A stretch of 64,000 nucleotides of DNA from Flavobacterium macacae (GTDB lineage Bacteria; Bacteroidota; Bacteroidia; Flavobacteriales; Flavobacteriaceae), in NCBI RefSeq assembly GCF_003865365.1, contig NZ_RQVR01000002.1, forward strand, positions 282,659-346,658, in the 5' to 3' direction. The notes below the pieces were generated by a model. The model was not told the origin of the DNA, searched no databases, and worked only from the letters and a program-made list of their open reading frames with translations. Made by a program: the position numbers and the translations under genes. This document shows, piece after piece, positions 1 to 7,863 of the stretch. The number at the start of each line of letters is the position of its first letter. The stretch's first letter is position 1.

Positions 1-513
1 GGCCCGTTGAGCCGATTGCACAAAAGAAATGTGGACAAAAAGTTTGATTTGATGGTGGTTCTTTCTGGTCCAGAACCGCAACGCGGGATGCTTGAGGAAA
101 AATTAAAAAAAGAAATGCCTTTGTACGACGGCAACGTAATTTTCATCAAAGGAAAAATTGAAAATGAGCAAAAAACAGAAGAAATCGGAAACGTAAAATA
201 TTATAATTTTATGACTACCGACGAATTAGAAACTGCTTTTAATGAAAGTGAAATGGTGCTTTGCCGTTCGGGTTACACGACGATCATGGATTTGGCACAA
301 TTGGGCAAAAAAGCTTTTTTTATTCCAACGCCTGGGCAATATGAGCAAGAATATTTGGCTAAAAAACTACAGAAAGAAGGATTGGTTCCGTTTTCAAAAC
401 AAAATGATTTTAAGATTGAAAAACTCAGCCAAATCGATAGCTATAAAGGGTTAAAAAACTTTGGAACCGACATTACGTGGAACAAATTATTTTGTCTTTT
501 CGAGAGTAAATGA
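1..513 (+). CDS. Glycosyltransferase, MurG-like C-terminal part (5' end outside window)
   Basis: The frame is open from base 1, so the start lies upstream of the window and only the C-terminal ~170 residues are present. The segment RSGYTTIMDLAQLGKK followed by a PTPGQYEQEYLA stretch resembles the nucleotide-sugar-binding C-terminal domain of GT28/MurG-type glycosyltransferases (family knowledge). The acceptor and donor cannot be read. The 3' end overlaps the convergent histidine kinase gene by 27 bp, so the two stop regions are shared with no room for a terminator. The in-frame TTG at 7 is very unlikely to be the real start. Confidence 0.7.
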   Translation, partial: GPLSRLHKRNVDKKFDLMVVLSGPEPQRGMLEEKLKKEMPLYDGNVIFIKGKIENEQKTEEIGNVKYYNFMTTDELETAFNESEMVLCRSGYTTIMDLAQLGKKAFFIPTPGQYEQEYLAKKLQKEGLVPFSKQNDFKIEKLSQIDSYKGLKNFGTDITWNKLFCLFESK

Positions 514-1530
514 AAACTCTGAACCTTTGCCTACCTTGCTTTCCACATACAGCTTTTCATCGTGGGCTTCAATAATATGCTTCACGATCGAAAGGCCCAA
601 ACCAGAACCGCCTTCACTTCTGGCGCCACTTTTGTCAATACGGTAAAAACGTTCAAAAAGTCTTGAAATGTGGTGTTTTTCGATGCCACTGCCATTGTCC
701 ATCACTCTCACGATGACTTTGTTGTTGACCAAATCTTCCACGCTGATTTCGGTAGTTCCGTCTTCCTTGCCGTATTTTATAGAGTTTACCACCAGATTGG
801 TGACCACCTGCTGTATTTTTTCTTTATCGCCGTAAACATAGATTGGCTTCAGGTATTTGATGTCAAACATCAGCATAATGTTTTTTTCAGAAGCATTCAT
901 TTCAAGCAAATCGAAAACATTTTGGATTACTTCTAAAATATCAAATCGAGAGTTGACCAAATTCAATTCGCCCGCTTCTAATTTTGTAATCATATCCAAA
1001 TCTTGAACAATGATAATCAATCTTTCCACGCCTTTTTCGGCTCTCTGCAAATATTTTTTTCGAATTGTCTTGTCTTTCATCCCGCCATCTAAAAGCGTTG
1101 AAAGATAGCCTTGAACGGTAAAAAGCGGGGTTTTTAATTCGTGGGAAACGTTTCCGAGGAATTCTCTTCGGTATTCTTCACGAACTTTTAATGTTTCGAT
1201 TTCGAGTTTTTTATCGGTAGCAAATTTTTTCACCTGCTTGGTCAGCGTCGCCATATCAGTGGTGATAGGCTGTGACCTGAAGTTAGTAGATTCCAGGAGC
1301 GAAACATCGTCGTATATTTTTTTTACTCTCCTGTAAATAAATCTTTCGACGCGGTATTGCAATACGAAGAACGAAAAAACGGCAATAGAAATACCAAAAA
1401 TAAGGCAAAATTTCCAGGAAAACGTAAAGAAAAGGCTGGTTAAGCCACCTACTAATCCGGTGGCAAAAAAGGTAATATAAAGCGATGATTTTACCGCAAA
1501 ACGATATGTTTTCTTGAAACTTACAGACAT
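487..1530 (-). CDS. Sensor histidine kinase, PhoR-like
   Basis: A 347-residue membrane sensor kinase. Two hydrophobic segments (about residues 12-33 and 37-58) are followed by a short linker with no visible PAS or large periplasmic domain. The HisKA H-box GNVSHELKTPL places the phospho-accepting His at residue 130. An N-box (VVTNLVVNSIKYG) and the G boxes DNGSGI and GGSGLGLSIVKHI follow. It should autophosphorylate and pass phosphate to the regulator encoded immediately upstream; the two genes overlap by one base (TAATG), so they are one operon. With little outside the membrane, the signal may be sensed in the membrane or through a partner, as in PhoR systems. The assignment as PhoR is inference from architecture and from the Pho-box-like sites nearby. 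Confidence 0.88.
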   Translation of the reverse strand: MSVSFKKTYRFAVKSSLYITFFATGLVGGLTSLFFTFSWKFCLIFGISIAVFSFFVLQYRVERFIYRRVKKIYDDVSLLESTNFRSQPITTDMATLTKQVKKFATDKKLEIETLKVREEYRREFLGNVSHELKTPLFTVQGYLSTLLDGGMKDKTIRKKYLQRAEKGVERLIIIVQDLDMITKLEAGELNLVNSRFDILEVIQNVFDLLEMNASEKNIMLMFDIKYLKPIYVYGDKEKIQQVVTNLVVNSIKYGKEDGTTEISVEDLVNNKVIVRVMDNGSGIEKHHISRLFERFYRIDKSGARSEGGSGLGLSIVKHIIEAHDEKLYVESKVGKGSEFSFTLEKTK

Positions 1531-2213
1531 TAAACTTCTAATTTATAACCAACACCTTTTATGGTTTTAAACAATTCTTCTCCTATTTTTTCTCTTAATT
1601 TTCTGATATGAACGTCAATAGTCCTGCCACCCACGATCACTTCGTTACCCCAAACTTTATCTAAAATCTCTTCTCTTTTGAAAACTTTTCCTGGTTTTGA
1701 AGCCAATAAGTAGAACAATTCAAATTCTTTTCTTGGAAGAATGATCTCTTTTCCGTCTTGGACAATCTTATATTCTTCACGATTTACTTCAATACCGCCC
1801 ACATTCAAAGTCTCTGAATTTTGCTCTTCTTCTTTCAGCCTTCTTAACAATGCTTTTACTTTGCTCACAAGCAATTTTGGCTTGATGGGTTTGGTAATAT
1901 AATCGTCCGCTCCTGCATCAAAACCGGCCACCTGAGAATAATCTTCGCTTCTTGCTGTTAGAAAAGTGATGATGACATTGCTCAATTCTGGTATTTTCCT
2001 GATGTTTTCGCACGCTTCCATTCCGTCCATTTCAGGCATCATTACGTCCATAATAATCAAGTGTGGCAATTCTTTTTTGGCCATTAAAACAGCTTCTTTA
2101 CCGTTACTGGCTGTAGAAATCTGATATCCTTCTTGCGTCAAATTATAACCTACAATTTCGAGGATGTCTTGCTCATCGTCAACCAATAAAATCTTAATGT
2201 CTTTCTTTTTCAT
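1530..2213 (-). CDS. OmpR/PhoB-family response regulator
   Basis: A 227-residue two-domain regulator. The receiver domain (residues 1-120) carries the acidic pair D12-D13, the phosphorylation site D56 (IIMDVMMPEMDG) and a YITKPIKP switch lysine. Residues about 130-227 form the winged-helix Trans_reg_C domain, ending RTIDVHIRKLREKIG and GVGYKLEV. PhoB/OmpR-family proteins bind tandem direct repeats with a ~11-bp period, and two such arrays lie just upstream of the two genes that follow on the plus strand. Co-transcribed with the kinase (one-base overlap). The natural reading is a PhoPR/PhoBR-like pair controlling its divergent neighbours. The intergenic side facing this gene shows no clear array in the reverse orientation. 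Confidence 0.92.
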   Translation of the reverse strand: MKKKDIKILLVDDEQDILEIVGYNLTQEGYQISTASNGKEAVLMAKKELPHLIIMDVMMPEMDGMEACENIRKIPELSNVIITFLTARSEDYSQVAGFDAGADDYITKPIKPKLLVSKVKALLRRLKEEEQNSETLNVGGIEVNREEYKIVQDGKEIILPRKEFELFYLLASKPGKVFKREEILDKVWGNEVIVGGRTIDVHIRKLREKIGEELFKTIKGVGYKLEV

Positions 2214-2296
2214 AATAAGGGAAAAGTTATGCGTTTAGCGGTTGTAAATGTAAATATAAAACAAAACGATTATATGTGTTAACGATAATTTAATCT

Positions 2297-2351
2297 GATA
2301 ACAATTTAGTAAACTTCAAGCAACTAAATAGTAACAAGTGAGTAACACCAC
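2297..2351 (+). promoter_or_regulatory. Array of five 11-bp half-sites (Pho-box-like) before the TonB receptor gene
   Basis: Five consecutive 11-mers start at 2297, 2308, 2319, 2330 and 2341: GATAACAATTT, AGTAAACTTCA, AGCAACTAAAT, AGTAACAAGTG and AGTAACACCAC. The core is AGTAACA with four variable bases between cores. The T of the last core (2343) is exactly 25 bp before the -7 box at 2368. Tandem 7-bp cores with 4-bp spacers are the geometry of PhoB boxes, and TTAACA-like cores are those of Bacillus PhoP boxes. It is probably the binding site of the divergently encoded OmpR/PhoB-type regulator. Confidence 0.75.
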
Positions 2352-2367
2352 CTTTACAGAACAGATG

Positions 2368-2375
2368 TTTCTTTG
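2368..2375 (+). promoter_or_regulatory. -7 box of the TonB receptor gene
   Basis: TTTCTTTG matches the Bacteroidetes -7 consensus TAnnTTTG at all but one informative base, 25 bp after the last half-site. There is no TTG at the usual -33 distance, which fits a promoter that depends on an activator. Transcription would start near 2380, leaving a ~20-nt leader. Confidence 0.6.
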
Positions 2376-2399
2376 CACAAAATTAAAGAACACAACAAC

Positions 2400-5144
2400 A
2401 TGAAAATTAAACTTTTATTCATCACCTTATTGCTTAGCACCCTTGGATTTGCCCAAAGCAAAGGTACAATTTCTGGAGTCATCACAGATAAGGACTTGAA
2501 TAACGAAACACTTCCTTTTGCAACAGTAACTGTCAAAGGAACCACCAACGCCGCCCAAACAGATATTGACGGAAAGTATGCACTTGAAGTAAATCCGGGA
2601 ACGTATGTTTTGGTTTATGGCTTCCTTGGATATGAATCACAAGAAGAAAGAATCACGATTGCTGCCGGAGAGAAAAGAACAATCAACAAGACCTTGACTT
2701 CTGGAAGCGTGACTTTAGAAGATGTGGTGATTGAATCGATCCAAAGCAGACAAAAAGAAACCGCTCTTTTAATGGAACAGCAAAAAGCGGTTGAAATTAA
2801 ACAAAACATCGGAGCTCAAGAATTGTCAAGAAAAGGAATTGGCGATGTGGCAACAGCTGTCGCAAAAACATCTGGAGTTTCTAAACAAGAAGGAAGCAAC
2901 AACGTGTATGTTAGAGGACTTGGCGACAGATACAACTCTACATCGATGAACGGATTGCCAATGCCATCAAATGATCCTGAAAAGAAAAATATTGCTTTAG
3001 GTCTTTTTTCAACTGACATCGTAGAATATATTTCAATTGATAAATCATACAATGCAAAAATGTACGGCGATTTTGCTGGAGGAAATGTAGACATTGTTTC
3101 AAAAGATTACCGCGGAAAAGGGATGCTTGAAATCTCATTAGGTTCAAAAATCAACACGAATGCTGTAAGCAAATCAGATAACTTTTTACTACAACAAGGT
3201 CCGAATAAATCAGGATTTGTAAATTATGGAATTCCGAATAATCCATTAGGAGCTTATAATTATGAAAACAGCTTGAATCCAACAAAAGAAGCTCCGTTTG
3301 GTGGCAACTTTGGAATTAAAGCTGGAAAAAGTTTTGATATAGGTGAAGAAGGGCGTTTGAACTTTTTTGCTACAGCAAGTTTTGACAACGGGTATTCTTA
3401 CAGAGAAGGATTGACAAGATCTATAAATGCTCAAGGCGTTTTCAATAAAGATTTTCACCAAGAAAACTTTACGTATACAACGAATTCAACCGCAATGTTT
3501 AATACCAATTATCGTATAAACAACAATCACAAAATTGGTTACAACCTTTTATATGTTAACTCTTCTGATCAATCAAGAGACACTTATTTTGGTAGTGACC
3601 GTGATTATGACAATGCAAATGCTGACTTGCTTATTCAAAGAGGTACTTTTATGCAAAACTCTGTTTTAATTAATCAACTTTTAGGAAATCACAGAATTAC
3701 TGATAATATTGACCTTGACTGGGGAGTTTCTTATAACACCGTGAAAGGTGATATGCCAGACAGAACTCAAAATAAAATGTTCTACACAAGAGACACTCAA
3801 GATTTTAAACTTGTGGAGAGAACGATCACTGACAACCAAAGGTATTTTCAAAACTTGAAAGAAGACGAAATGGCTGCAAACTTGGCAGTTAGTTACAAAT
3901 TAGCTAAAAATGAAGCTGGTGATTCAAAAGGAAAAATAACTTTAGGATACAACGGAAGATTTAAAAAACGTGATTTCGAAGCCATTCAATTTAACTCAGA
4001 TCTTACAAGCCAAGGACAACAAGTGGTTGTTAATCCAAATAATTTAGATGCTTTTTTCAATCAATCAAATTATCAAAACGGAGAGTTCTTTTCACTTCAA
4101 TCTTTTGCAGGATTAAACCCTCAAACGTATAATGGTGATCAAAAAATTCACGCTGCAATTGGTAGTTTTGAATATAAATTATCAGAAAAATTAAGTGGAG
4201 TTATTGGCTTAAGATATGAAAAAATAGAGCAAACAGTTGACTGGAGAACACAACTTGATGCTGGTGGAGGAACTAATACTTTTAACAGAAATGAATTTTT
4301 ACCAAGTCTTGTGATGAAGTACGAAGTAAATGACAAACAAAATTTACGATTGGCAGCAAGTAAGACCTATACTTTGCCACAATTTAAAGAACGTGCGTAT
4401 TTCATTTATGAAGATGTAATGGAATCAAAAGTTGGAAATGAGTTTTTATATCCTTCTCAAAATTACAACCTTGACTTAAAATGGGAAATGTTTCCTCAAA
4501 ATGATGAACTATTCTCTGTAACCGTTTTTGGAAAATATATCAAAGACCCAATCAATGAAATAATCATCGCTTCTTCAACCAATGACATTTCTTGGGTAAA
4601 CATCGGAGATCAAGGTCACGCTTTTGGAGCTGAATTTGAAGCAAGAAAAAATATTTTTGACTTTGATGGAGAATTAGCAAACAAACTTTCATTTGGTTTA
4701 AACGCTTCTGTCATGAAAACTGACCAAGATATTGACAATGAAAAAATTGCCAAAGAAACACAGGGAAGAAAAGCCAGTAACTTAACTGACACATCATCTG
4801 GATTCACAGGAGCTTCTGATTTAGTTATGAACGCTGATTTGACCTATTCAAAAGAATGGAAAAATGATTCAGGAATTATGGCAACACTTTCTTACACGCA
4901 CAATTCAGACAAACTTTATGCTTTAGGTAATGAAGGAAAAGGAAACTTGGTGGATAAAGCCATTGGTTCACTTGATTTTGTTTTAAAAACAAAATTGAAC
5001 AAAAACTTAGGTATCGATTTTGGAGCAAGAAACATTTTGAATCCAACATTTGAAAGAGTTCAAGAAAATGCTTCAGGCGATGTGAAAGCATTAAGCTATA
5101 AAAGAGGAGTAAATATCGGTTTAGGATTGAACTACAATTTTTAA
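2400..5144 (+). CDS. TonB-dependent outer-membrane receptor (no SusD partner)
   Basis: A 914-residue receptor. The ATG at 2400 is chosen because it begins a clean signal peptide (MKIKLLFITLLLSTLGFAQ); an upstream TTG at 2373 would overlap the promoter. After the signal come a CarboxypepD_reg-like domain (about residues 20-105), a plug domain with the segments NNVYVRGLGDRYNST and YGDFAGGNVDIVSK (about 130-240), and a long beta-barrel ending in an aromatic residue (LNYNF). It should import a substrate across the outer membrane using TonB energy. The next gene is a surface-type lipoprotein rather than a SusD, and both carry the same five-half-site promoter array. The substrate is not visible in the sequence; phosphate or a phosphorylated compound is an inference from the PhoB/PhoR-like neighbours. 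Confidence 0.92.
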   Translation: MKIKLLFITLLLSTLGFAQSKGTISGVITDKDLNNETLPFATVTVKGTTNAAQTDIDGKYALEVNPGTYVLVYGFLGYESQEERITIAAGEKRTINKTLTSGSVTLEDVVIESIQSRQKETALLMEQQKAVEIKQNIGAQELSRKGIGDVATAVAKTSGVSKQEGSNNVYVRGLGDRYNSTSMNGLPMPSNDPEKKNIALGLFSTDIVEYISIDKSYNAKMYGDFAGGNVDIVSKDYRGKGMLEISLGSKINTNAVSKSDNFLLQQGPNKSGFVNYGIPNNPLGAYNYENSLNPTKEAPFGGNFGIKAGKSFDIGEEGRLNFFATASFDNGYSYREGLTRSINAQGVFNKDFHQENFTYTTNSTAMFNTNYRINNNHKIGYNLLYVNSSDQSRDTYFGSDRDYDNANADLLIQRGTFMQNSVLINQLLGNHRITDNIDLDWGVSYNTVKGDMPDRTQNKMFYTRDTQDFKLVERTITDNQRYFQNLKEDEMAANLAVSYKLAKNEAGDSKGKITLGYNGRFKKRDFEAIQFNSDLTSQGQQVVVNPNNLDAFFNQSNYQNGEFFSLQSFAGLNPQTYNGDQKIHAAIGSFEYKLSEKLSGVIGLRYEKIEQTVDWRTQLDAGGGTNTFNRNEFLPSLVMKYEVNDKQNLRLAASKTYTLPQFKERAYFIYEDVMESKVGNEFLYPSQNYNLDLKWEMFPQNDELFSVTVFGKYIKDPINEIIIASSTNDISWVNIGDQGHAFGAEFEARKNIFDFDGELANKLSFGLNASVMKTDQDIDNEKIAKETQGRKASNLTDTSSGFTGASDLVMNADLTYSKEWKNDSGIMATLSYTHNSDKLYALGNEGKGNLVDKAIGSLDFVLKTKLNKNLGIDFGARNILNPTFERVQENASGDVKALSYKRGVNIGLGLNYNF

Positions 5145-5163
5145 TCCATCTTAAAAACATTTA

Positions 5164-5218
5164 CATAACGTTAGGCTAAGAAACAAATAACAAACACATT
5201 ACATCACCTTAACGTTCA
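5164..5218 (+). promoter_or_regulatory. Second array of five 11-bp half-sites, before the lipoprotein gene
   Basis: Five consecutive 11-mers start at 5164, 5175, 5186, 5197 and 5208: CATAACGTTAG, GCTAAGAAACA, AATAACAAACA, CATTACATCAC and CTTAACGTTCA, sharing a T(A/T)AC(A/G) core. The number of repeats, the 11-bp period and the distance of the last core (5210) to the -7 box (5235), 25 bp, are identical to the array before the TonB receptor gene. This points to the same regulator and to a transcript separate from the receptor's. Confidence 0.72.
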
Positions 5219-5234
5219 ATAAGTCATAAGTTCT

Positions 5235-5242
5235 CATTTTTG
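5235..5242 (+). promoter_or_regulatory. -7 box of the lipoprotein gene
   Basis: CATTTTTG matches TAnnTTTG except for its first base. It lies 25 bp after the last half-site core and ~27 bp before the ATG. No -33 TTG element is present, as at the receptor promoter. Confidence 0.55.
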
Positions 5243-5269
5243 CATAAACATAACTAATCAAAAAAAGTA

Positions 5270-6457
5270 ATGAAAAAATCAGTTTCAAAAATTTTCGGTT
5301 TAGCAGCATTATCGCTTGCAACTATTACAACATCTTGCTCTAGCGATGACAACAATGATTCAAACAATAATGGAGGAGGCTCTTCTTTTGTTGTAAACAG
5401 AGATAACCTTCAAGGTGAAATCAATGAAGGTGAAGTAATCCTTGAGTCTGGAACTTACAAACTTACAGGAAAACTTGTTGTAAAAAACAATGCAAAACTA
5501 ACCATCAAACCAGGGGTTAAAATTGAAGCTACTGAATTAGCTCCAAATCAGTTTGAGTCTGTTAGATATATTGCAGTTTCTCAAGGAGGAAAAATTGACG
5601 TTCAAGGTACAGCTTCACAACCAGTTATTATGACTGCTGCTGAAAACAAACCAGGTGCCTGGGGTGGATTAGTATTGTGTGGTAAAGCACCAATCAACAA
5701 AGGAGCAAGTGCTTCTGCTGAAGTTTCTGACTTAACGTATGGTGGTTCCGATGCAAATGATAATTCTGGTTCAATTAAATATTTAAGAATTGAATATTCA
5801 GGATACGCTTACAATTCAGAAAAAGAATTTAACGGACTTTCTTTATTTGGAGTTGGTAAAGGAACTACAGTAGAATATGTACAAGTTTATGAAGGATCTG
5901 ATGACGGATTCGAATGGTTCGGTGGAACTGTAGATGCTAAATATCTTGTTGTTACCAACAAAGATGTAACTAATGTAGCTGATGATTTGTTTGACTGGAC
6001 TGAAGGATGGAATGGTCTTGGTGAAAACTGGTATGGAATCAGAACAAACGCAAGTAACAGAGGTATCGAAGCAGATAATAACTCTAACAACCACTTGGCT
6101 GCTCCAATATCAAACCCAACTATCAAAAACCTTACATTAATTGGTACTAACGCAAGTTCTGAAAACCAAGCTATCAAATTGAGAGTTGGAACTAAAGGAA
6201 ACTTTGACAACGTAGTATTAAAAGGTTTTGCAACTGGTTTTGACATTCAACACGATGAAAGCATTGGATATATTGGAACTGACTTGAAAGCAACTAACGT
6301 TAAATTTGAAGATATTGCTACAAAATCAGTAGGAAAAAACACAGCAGGAACAGCAGTTGATGTAACTGCAGTTTATACTGAAAGCGCAACTGCAACAGGA
6401 GCTGGAAACGGATCTGGAGTTCCAACTTGGACGACTGGATGGACAATAGGTTTATAA
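5270..6457 (+). CDS. Surface-type lipoprotein with beta-helix-like repeats
   Basis: A 395-residue lipoprotein. A type II signal peptide ends in TTSC with the lipid-bearing Cys at residue 23. The following SSDDNND stretch resembles the acidic lipoprotein export signal that sends Flavobacteriia lipoproteins to the cell surface (family knowledge). The mature part has recurring short strands with G, N and V spacing (for example GTYKLTGKLVVKNNAKLTI, GSIKYLRIEYSG, GTTVEYVQVYEGSDDGFEWF) that suggest a right-handed beta-helix like those of polysaccharide- or adhesin-type proteins. No catalytic motif is recognised. It directly follows the TonB receptor, has its own copy of the regulatory array and ends at a strong terminator. 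It may capture ligand for the receptor, as SusD proteins do, but this is inference. Confidence 0.8.
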   Translation: MKKSVSKIFGLAALSLATITTSCSSDDNNDSNNNGGGSSFVVNRDNLQGEINEGEVILESGTYKLTGKLVVKNNAKLTIKPGVKIEATELAPNQFESVRYIAVSQGGKIDVQGTASQPVIMTAAENKPGAWGGLVLCGKAPINKGASASAEVSDLTYGGSDANDNSGSIKYLRIEYSGYAYNSEKEFNGLSLFGVGKGTTVEYVQVYEGSDDGFEWFGGTVDAKYLVVTNKDVTNVADDLFDWTEGWNGLGENWYGIRTNASNRGIEADNNSNNHLAAPISNPTIKNLTLIGTNASSENQAIKLRVGTKGNFDNVVLKGFATGFDIQHDESIGYIGTDLKATNVKFEDIATKSVGKNTAGTAVDVTAVYTESATATGAGNGSGVPTWTTGWTIGL

Positions 6458-6903: not shown

Positions 6904-6954
6904 TTGCGAAACTGACAAAATTTCAGATTTAACCTAAAATTTACACAATAATTT

Positions 6955-6983
6955 TTGCTTGACATAAATTGTTTCTATCTTTG
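6955..6983 (+). promoter_or_regulatory. Consensus promoter of the 7018 gene
   Basis: TTG at 6955-6957 and TATCTTTG at 6976-6983 are separated by 18 bp, a near-perfect -33/-7 Bacteroidetes promoter. The ATG follows 34 bp after the -7 box. Confidence 0.78.
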
Positions 6984-7017: not shown

Positions 7018-7863
7018 ATGAAAAAACTTTACACTTTATTATCTGTTTTTGTATTAGCAATCACTGCAAGTGCTCAAACAACAATCTCACAATGGAATTT
7101 TGACGGAGCTACACCTGCCGCAGCGATGTTACCTTCTACTGGAAGCGGAACATTTACAACAATTGGTGGAGTTGAAGATAATCTTACAAGTGGTGCAATG
7201 CCTGCTGGTAACCCTTCTACTGGAAAAGCTTACAGTATCAAAACCTTTCCTGAAGCTGGAGCTGCTTCTGGAACTGCAGGTTTTCAATTTAATGTAAGTA
7301 CAGCTGGATATTCAAATATCTCAATTACTTTTGACCCAAGAAGCTCTAACACAGGTTCTAAATGGCAACAGTTTGAATATTCAATAAATGGGACTGCTTG
7401 GGTAGTTTTAAGTAACAATAATGGAGCTTTAGCTAATGATTTTGCTAACCCAGTAAGCTTAACACTTCCTGCTACTGCAAATAATAATGCAAATTTTAAA
7501 TTTAGAATTGTTTCAATTTTCGCTCCTTCAACTTCTGATTATGCTCCAGTTGGAACATCTTATGGAACTGGTGGCGCTTGGAGAATTGATAACTTTACTG
7601 TAACTGGCTCAACACTTTCTGTTAAAGAAAACGCTATCGCAGGTTTAAGCATCTATCCAAACCCAGTAACAAACGGAAAATTCTCTATTACAACTGATGC
7701 TAATGCTGAGAAATCAGTAGTTATCTTTGACGTATTAGGAAAACAAGTAGTAAAAACTATTGCTACTGAAACTGTAAACGTTTCAAACCTTAACGCTGGT
7801 GTTTACATCGTAAAAATCACTGAAGAAGGTAAAACAGCAACAAGAAAATTAGTTATCAAATAA
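7018..7863 (+). CDS. T9SS type A sorting-domain protein, secreted
   Basis: 281 residues. A signal peptide (to about residue 19, ITASAQ) is followed by a ~185-residue beta-rich domain starting TTISQWNFDG, with the segments ISITFDPRSSNTGSKWQ and GGAWRIDNFTV. This pattern is common in secreted Bacteroidetes proteins with jelly-roll-like or choice-of-anchor folds. The last ~75 residues are a T9SS CTD (IYPNPVTNGKFSI, VVIFDVLGKQVV, LNAGVYIVKIT, TRKLVIK), so the protein should cross the outer membrane by the type IX system and be released or attached to the surface. No catalytic residues are recognised. It has its own strong promoter and a terminator immediately downstream. Confidence 0.82.
   Translation: MKKLYTLLSVFVLAITASAQTTISQWNFDGATPAAAMLPSTGSGTFTTIGGVEDNLTSGAMPAGNPSTGKAYSIKTFPEAGAASGTAGFQFNVSTAGYSNISITFDPRSSNTGSKWQQFEYSINGTAWVVLSNNNGALANDFANPVSLTLPATANNNANFKFRIVSIFAPSTSDYAPVGTSYGTGGAWRIDNFTVTGSTLSVKENAIAGLSIYPNPVTNGKFSITTDANAEKSVVIFDVLGKQVVKTIATETVNVSNLNAGVYIVKITEEGKTATRKLVIK

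Follow-up and report, generated by a model that had tools for sequence, protein, structure and literature searches.

Probable Pho boxes in Flavobacterium macacae: rows of 11-bp half-sites before a TonB-dependent receptor gene and a lipoprotein gene

Genes and promoter arrays of the locus

The locus described here lies on a 64,000-nucleotide stretch of Flavobacterium macacae DNA (contig NZ_RQVR01000002.1, positions 282,659 to 346,658 of the forward strand), the whole of which is called the window below. The gene order is glycosyltransferase, sensor kinase, PhoB-family response regulator, TonB-dependent outer-membrane receptor and lipoprotein, with the kinase and regulator transcribed divergently from the receptor. 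The lipoprotein matches no family in Pfam or NCBIfam. The receptor and lipoprotein promoters each carry a row of TAAC-type half-sites with an exact period of 11 base pairs (bp), and both are without a -33 element on direct reading of the DNA. Coordinates are collected in Table 1.

The receptor array reads TAACA (2299), TAAAC (2310), CAACT (2321), TAACA (2332) and TAACA (2343), followed in register by a sixth half-site (2354, TTACA); taking the G of TTTG as -7, these start at -83, -72, -61, -50, -39 and -28. The lipoprotein array reads TAACG (5166), TAAGA (5177), TAACA (5188), TTACA (5199) and TAACG (5210), with an extra, weaker half-site in register ahead of them (5155, AAACA). The flavobacterial -7 box is given as TAnnTTTG (PMC9723704). 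In both promoters the distance from the start of the fifth listed core (2343; 5210) is 25 bp to the -7 box (2368; 5235) and 29 bp to the TTTG within it. A sequence-only reading of this DNA had described five TAACA-like cores per promoter with an exact 11-bp period, the last beginning 25 bp before the -7 box, and no -33 TTG; direct reading agrees on each point. Its emphasis on the number five stood less well: five cores are present in both promoters, but the rows are longer than that, their number varies from 2 to 6 among related promoters, and it is the phase that is conserved.

The same reading had judged this geometry hard to obtain by chance, and the counts bear this out. Allowing at most five mismatches in all and two per core, five-core arrays occur in the window at period 11 only and at these two places only (periods 6 to 30, both strands), and no such array arose in a second-order Markov simulation of 60 windows (period 11). 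A profile model of 92 columns (R3), built from 34 promoters of other genomes and omitting the window's own two as well as two gapped lipoprotein promoters (L048 and L060), ranked positions 2294-2377 first (expectation value, E, 1.5e-13) and 5157-5245 second (E 3.3e-6) when scanned against the window; the third match had E 0.064. An ordinary promoter with no array, upstream of a type IX secretion system (T9SS) protein gene, serves as contrast, its upstream element being read against the usual -33 consensus.

Table 1. Features of the locus and the small RNA of the same genome (window positions unless a contig is given)
Feature	Position	Strand	Remarks
Glycosyltransferase	7..513	+	truncated by window edge; PF04101; counterpart of Fjoh_0541
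Sensor kinase	487..1530	-	HisKA, HATPase_c; PnpS and PhoR are the best matches, catalytic half only
PhoB-family response regulator	1530..2213	-	predicted binder; Response_reg and Trans_reg_C
GTTWACnnTWATTTAAT block	2278..2294		largely conserved; between the divergent regulator and receptor promoters, above the receptor array
Receptor-promoter half-site array	2299..2358	+	six in-register cores: 2299, 2310, 2321, 2332, 2343, 2354
Receptor-promoter -7 box	2368..2375	+	TTTCTTTG; upstream -33 TTTG absent
TonB-dependent outer-membrane receptor	2400..5144	+	CarbopepD_reg_2, Plug, barrel; syntenic counterpart of Fjoh_0545
Lipoprotein-promoter half-site array	5155..5214	+	cores 5166, 5177, 5188, 5199, 5210; weaker one 5155
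Lipoprotein-promoter -7 box	5235..5242	+	CATTTTTG; direct reading
Lipoprotein	5270..6457	+	signal peptide ending in Cys (read from sequence); positional counterpart of Fjoh_0546 (FII)
Contrast promoter, no array	6954..6983	+	TTTG at -36 to -33, TATCTTTG at -7; T9SS protein gene at 7018
Small RNA, window's genome	G000:C53:172326-172407	-	model R2, E 5.3e-11 (L292, L136); loci L287-L316

Conservation of the array and its target genes

A receptor homologue (E 1e-100 or better) is present in 45 of the 61 genus genomes searched, and we examined the best 30 of those 45 (the window's included) together with one Paenimyroides locus, the sole locus taken from a contig scan. The sequence-only reading had staked its proposal on the array recurring before orthologues in related genomes, and this is what we found: period 11 was the best period in 30 of the 31 receptor loci, the remaining one being cut off by a contig that begins within the gene. 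The distance from the last of the five best cores to TTTG is exactly 29 bp in 26 receptor loci and 18 bp in 4, where the five best cores are displaced by one turn. When 21 non-redundant receptor promoters (out of 30) are aligned on TTTG, conservation is seen at the TAA(C) positions and in parts of a block spanning -104 to -88; most spacer positions are not conserved, nor is any base at -35 or -33.

For the lipoprotein promoters the best offset was 29 bp in 21 of 28, 40 bp in 2 and another value in 5 (three of 31 loci were dropped, two cut by contig ends and one without a downstream frame). The non-redundant set comprises 17 of these 28; five were set aside for an off TTTG choice or for having no array, and the remainder were near duplicates. 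In a family-wide set of 30 lipoprotein upstream regions, mostly from distant homologues and with minus-strand loci left unreversed, a clear array was seen in the window only. The outer half-sites of lipoprotein promoters vary between orthologues, and so the conserved property is not the number five but the 11-bp phase relative to the -7 box, which differs by no more than about one base from one gene class to another. TAAC starts fall in a single class modulo 11 in 63/69 cases for receptor and 39/54 for lipoprotein promoters, both sets having been pre-fitted to the register, and in 31/42, 11/15 and 9/12 for porin, pst and PiT/PhoU_div promoters, respectively, which were model-chosen. The arrays seem to follow a rule of 2 to 6 half-sites placed at -28, -39, -50, -61, -72 and -83, and the longest rows seen precede the outer-membrane receptor and the lipoprotein.

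A scan of related genomes, proposed with the sequence-only reading, recovered the array widely. The model used (R1), built from the sequences of 38 receptor and lipoprotein promoters, gave a best E below 1e-6 in 50 of the 61 genus genomes; 23 of these genomes were training donors, and 29 of the other 38 also reached that value. We opened 56 R1 matches among the matches listed, mainly away from the receptor and lipoprotein; 38 fit the expected arrangement and 25 of the 56 are phosphate-transport or porin-like genes. The fitting matches precede TonB receptors or receptor-like genes (7, three of them the receptor itself in untrained genomes), porins or porin-like genes (11, including Porin_O_P genes), PstS (5), PstC-like permeases (2), PiT (2), PhoU_div (5), one gene for a purple acid phosphatase and two for other secreted proteins; the last three lie before short transcripts that end in a terminator and contain no gene. 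Pfam backs the target examples tested, except for one porin-like protein (L346) without a match, and the remaining targets were named by resemblance; all five PhoU_div targets were also family matches in a separate search.

Some of these loci show further arrangements. A PstC-like permease gene with a PBP_like_2 segment has its own array (L341:489-562, L341:1550-1623; L342:481-558); this array is distinct from the one before PstS, which gives genome G136 two promoters of this kind for its pst genes. Porin-like genes with arrays, several of them beside the kinase, are found at L340:6565-6651 and L344-L349. An element with in-phase TAAC half-sites recurs in six genomes (G000:C1:3046-3104, L323, L324, L327, L333, L336), upstream of aspS in at least two (the window's own genome and G126); we did not accept it as a further Pho promoter because TTTG is absent at the expected distance.

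Since the R1 targets were chosen by the model, two tests were made on loci selected in another way, PhoU_div promoters and a small RNA (next section). A family search for PhoU_div gave 54 matches in 53 of 61 genomes. Among the best 30 of these 54 loci, with one left out, the best half-site row lay at an offset of 28 bp (19 promoters) or 29 bp (5) in 24 of the 29 scored, a typical row being TTAACAnnnnnTTAACA. Many of the species are close relatives, so that individual cases are not independent.

Across the order, an R1 match at E 1e-3 or better was found in 37 of 148 genomes (11 from the same genus, 9 from other genera of the family and 17 from nine other families). At 20 of 21 loci opened (two from the same genus, and with five families represented besides its own) the match precedes a receptor, lipoprotein-like, porin-like, PstS-like or Na/Pi-cotransporter gene; one locus is unclear. 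Of ten target proteins tested from this set, Pfam supports six; no Pfam match was obtained for the protein of the unclear locus, for one porin-like fragment or for the two lipoprotein-like proteins.

A small RNA behind the same kind of promoter

Following up the R1 matches that have no gene downstream, we arrived at a conserved transcript located behind a DUF4197 gene; it is present at 11 of the 30 DUF4197 loci that we opened. This small RNA is about 80 nucleotides (nt) long. It carries a stretch of the GGTTAGGGTTAGTTA or GGTTTTGGTTAGTTA type, along with a terminator hairpin; among 12 sequences, two-sided changes are found at 7 of this hairpin's 8 pairs. A model of the RNA alone (R2), with the promoter excluded and the badly aligned candidates L160 and L238 left out, detects it in 56 of the 61 genus genomes at a threshold of E 0.01, with 50 of them below 1e-4, and several large genomes have neighbouring copies. 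Three candidates picked by eye, L160 (G154), L319 (G133) and L238 (G178), were unmatched by R2 at E 0.01, and no site in the window scored below E 0.15 against the small-RNA model. The promoter, which played no part in R2, keeps the register: the nearer half-site lies 30 bp before TTTG in 26 of 28 scored RNA loci and 29 bp before it in 2 (30 loci were opened, two being unscorable because the model match begins inside TTTG). All 19 RNA loci outside the training genomes have the 30-bp offset, many of them in close relatives.

At the eight RNA loci tried against Rfam (3 + 5), no family reached its gathering score; Thr_leader, for example, remained sub-threshold at 25.5 of 55 bits. Small RNAs of F. 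psychrophilum have been catalogued, Rfp18 among them (PMC9723704). Compared by description only, Rfp18 has a third stem-loop in the text of that source, as against the one covarying hairpin here, and the two are therefore probably different RNAs. The small RNA may correspond to another of those described in PMC9723704.

Probable regulation by phosphate and comparison with known systems

Published expression data from the syntenic locus of F. johnsoniae point to phosphate. There the order is glycosyltransferase, OprP, PhoR, PhoB, receptor and lipoprotein FII (PMC8115612), and counterparts of the window's genes were assigned by synteny and families. Under phosphate depletion, Table 1 of that paper gives, as printed, 8.02 for the receptor Fjoh_0545 and 9.91 for the lipoprotein Fjoh_0546, with 5.42 for the glycosyltransferase and 3.06 for phoB in the same data (PMC8115612). 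In related genomes, sites of the same type precede phosphate-uptake genes and the conserved small RNA, which makes them likely docking sites of a phosphate-starvation regulator. We consider it very likely that both window arrays are Pho boxes, at which the divergently encoded PhoB-type regulator is predicted to dock in place of the -33 contact. They have the direct repeats of about 11 bp in two or more units and stand in for the upstream promoter element in a fixed register to the -7 box (28 to 30 bp by gene class); as for a position before phosphate acquisition genes, this is found in related genomes and is weak in the window's own genome outside the window. The Pho-box and PhoB-type character proposed by the sequence-only reading is thus upheld by the arrays before orthologues, the phosphate-uptake targets, the standing of the regulator as best PhoB match and the induction in F. 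johnsoniae (PMC8115612).

We infer that the adjacent regulator is the binder and that it is driven by phosphorylation by the adjacent kinase. Phosphate shortage would cause the kinase to phosphorylate the regulator, and the phosphorylated molecules would line up head to tail on the half-sites along one face of the DNA, by analogy with PhoB (PMC4415409). Adjacent molecules at about -39 and -28 would contact sigma, substituting for the -33 contact, and RNA polymerase would be recruited to the array promoters on phosphate shortage; more half-sites would give more cooperative and stronger induction. For the GTTWACnnTWATTTAAT block above the receptor array, a role in the promoter of the regulator itself is possible.

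Several observations weigh against this interpretation. Scanned with R1, the genome that holds the window yields good scores for the two window promoters alone; the next scores are near aspS (E 0.0088), at the RNA promoter (E 0.25) and at PhoU_div-PiT (E 1.08). Loose patterns allowing three mismatches showed, the window arrays aside, no enrichment over a reversed control in that genome (7 vs 13; 51 vs 153), so lone matches elsewhere in it carry no meaning and profile models were used instead. Of the 56 opened R1 matches, 18 were intragenic or had an unrelated downstream gene, and 111 of the 148 genomes of the order had no R1 match at E 1e-3. The preferred offset to TTTG varies by gene class (28, 29 or 30 bp). 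The porin Fjoh_0542 beside PhoR was not induced (-1.3, not significant; PMC8115612), which counts against porin arrays being active in F. johnsoniae; porin genes in that position carry arrays in other genomes. In Riemerella, deletion of a PhoP/PhoR-like pair, not necessarily orthologous to the pair here, raised pstS about 8-fold (PMC5399024), a poor fit to a simple activator.

The identity of the binder is a further point of doubt. The regulator has the receiver and the OmpR/PhoB winged-helix domain, yet it falls below the curated PhoB cut-offs (TIGR02154, 216.5 of 296.2 bits; NF053854, 211.8 of 270), the former of which is reached in none of the 61 genus genomes searched; the kinase likewise falls below the TIGR02966 PhoR cut-off (235.2 of 334.2 bits, with residues 110-343, the catalytic half, aligned). 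Against the E. coli PhoB effector-domain structures 1gxp and 3t72 the regulator's DNA-binding domain scores about 55 bits, and several other OmpR-family domains score higher. At an E threshold of 1e-40, every one of the 61 genomes encodes between 2 and 11 PhoB-like regulators, and in 3 of the 60 genomes compared the regulator beside the array is not the best PhoB match, so that another regulator could be the binder. Binding by such an OmpR/PhoB-family paralogue, with the link to phosphate real all the same, nevertheless seems unlikely to us: the adjacent regulator is the top PhoB-family match in its own genome, in 49 of the 60 genomes the best PhoB match and an R1 array match are separated by 82 to 224 bp, and the F. 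johnsoniae counterpart of the regulator is itself induced (PMC8115612). In the other 8 genomes no array row was found beside the best PhoB match among the matches listed; the comparison covers 60 of the 61 genus genomes, with array rows hand-picked from the R1 listing.

Less probable still is a response of the array to envelope or outer-membrane stress in a wider sense, with the phosphate genes forming just one part of a mixed regulon. The commonest opened targets are indeed outer-membrane receptors, porin-like proteins and lipoproteins, and the Riemerella pair altered about a third of all genes (PMC5399024); PstS, PstC-like, PiT and PhoU_div, however, are inner-membrane, periplasmic or cytoplasmic phosphate proteins, and the low-phosphate receptors respond to phosphate depletion only, not to nitrogen or iron limitation (PMC8115612, section 14). 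That the repeats are merely AT-rich sequence acting through DNA bending or as an UP element, with no specific activator, is most improbable despite the AT-rich window and a spacing near one helical turn, given that TAAC positions are conserved where most spacers drift, that other periods give nothing and that many target genes share one function.

The Pho-box reading extends beyond this locus. Flavobacteria can have large phosphate-scavenging regulons (PMC8115612), and it is quite possible, albeit a more tentative suggestion, that the array is the operator of a Flavobacteriales-wide Pho regulon in which row length sets the strength of the phosphate-starvation response and which includes the small RNA, re-tuning mRNAs. 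With so explicit a rule, TAAC half-sites every 11 bp in a fixed phase to the -7 box, phosphate-regulated genes would become predictable from sequence, among them genes without known function such as the receptor-lipoprotein pair; the rule also draws attention to a conserved small RNA that is likely controlled in the same way.

Among the known systems compared, the F. johnsoniae PHO regulon (Fjoh_0541 to 0549) shares gene order and families, and phosphate depletion induces its receptor and lipoprotein; its glycosyltransferase and PhoR genes are separated by a porin that the window does not have (PMC8115612). The words "motif" and "promoter" are absent from the main text of that paper. The Bacteroides fragilis PhoB (BF1576), from the same phylum and a different order, shifts a 512-bp pstC promoter fragment and is required for pstC expression, and the available text of that study shows no binding motif (PMC3547664). 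Putative Pho boxes are marked near plcP genes of marine heterotrophic bacteria (PMC4796936). To the sequence-only reading the five-half-site array had seemed undescribed in Flavobacteriia. This survives in part: in the open literature, covered largely without depth, we found no published binding motif for any Bacteroidetes PhoB, but Pho boxes are 11-bp direct repeats and the kind is therefore already known.

The Bacillus subtilis PhoP box consists of TTAACA-like direct repeats about 11 bp apart; it differs from the arrays here in its Gram-positive regulator and sigma factor and in its gene set. The PhoB of E. coli binds 11-bp direct repeats head to tail (PMC4415409), and its Pho box sits 10 bp upstream of the -10 box (PMC1906773). 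The window-type array resembles it in having 11-bp direct repeats at phosphate genes, and differs in its core (TAAC, where E. coli has CTGTCAT), in its 2 to 6 half-sites and in the Bacteroidetes TAnnTTTG -7 box that takes the place of the -10 box. In the cyanobacterial SphR box, which together with the PhoB Pho box comes closest to the arrays here, three or more 8-bp units, CTTAACCT, are repeated in tandem and separated by 3-bp linkers (PMC1906773); the period is hence the same. The SphR box belongs to another phylum and promoter type, and a fixed -7 phase and rows of five to six are not described for it in the available text of PMC1906773; it nonetheless shares with the arrays of F. macacae a TTAAC core, the 11-bp period and more than two units.

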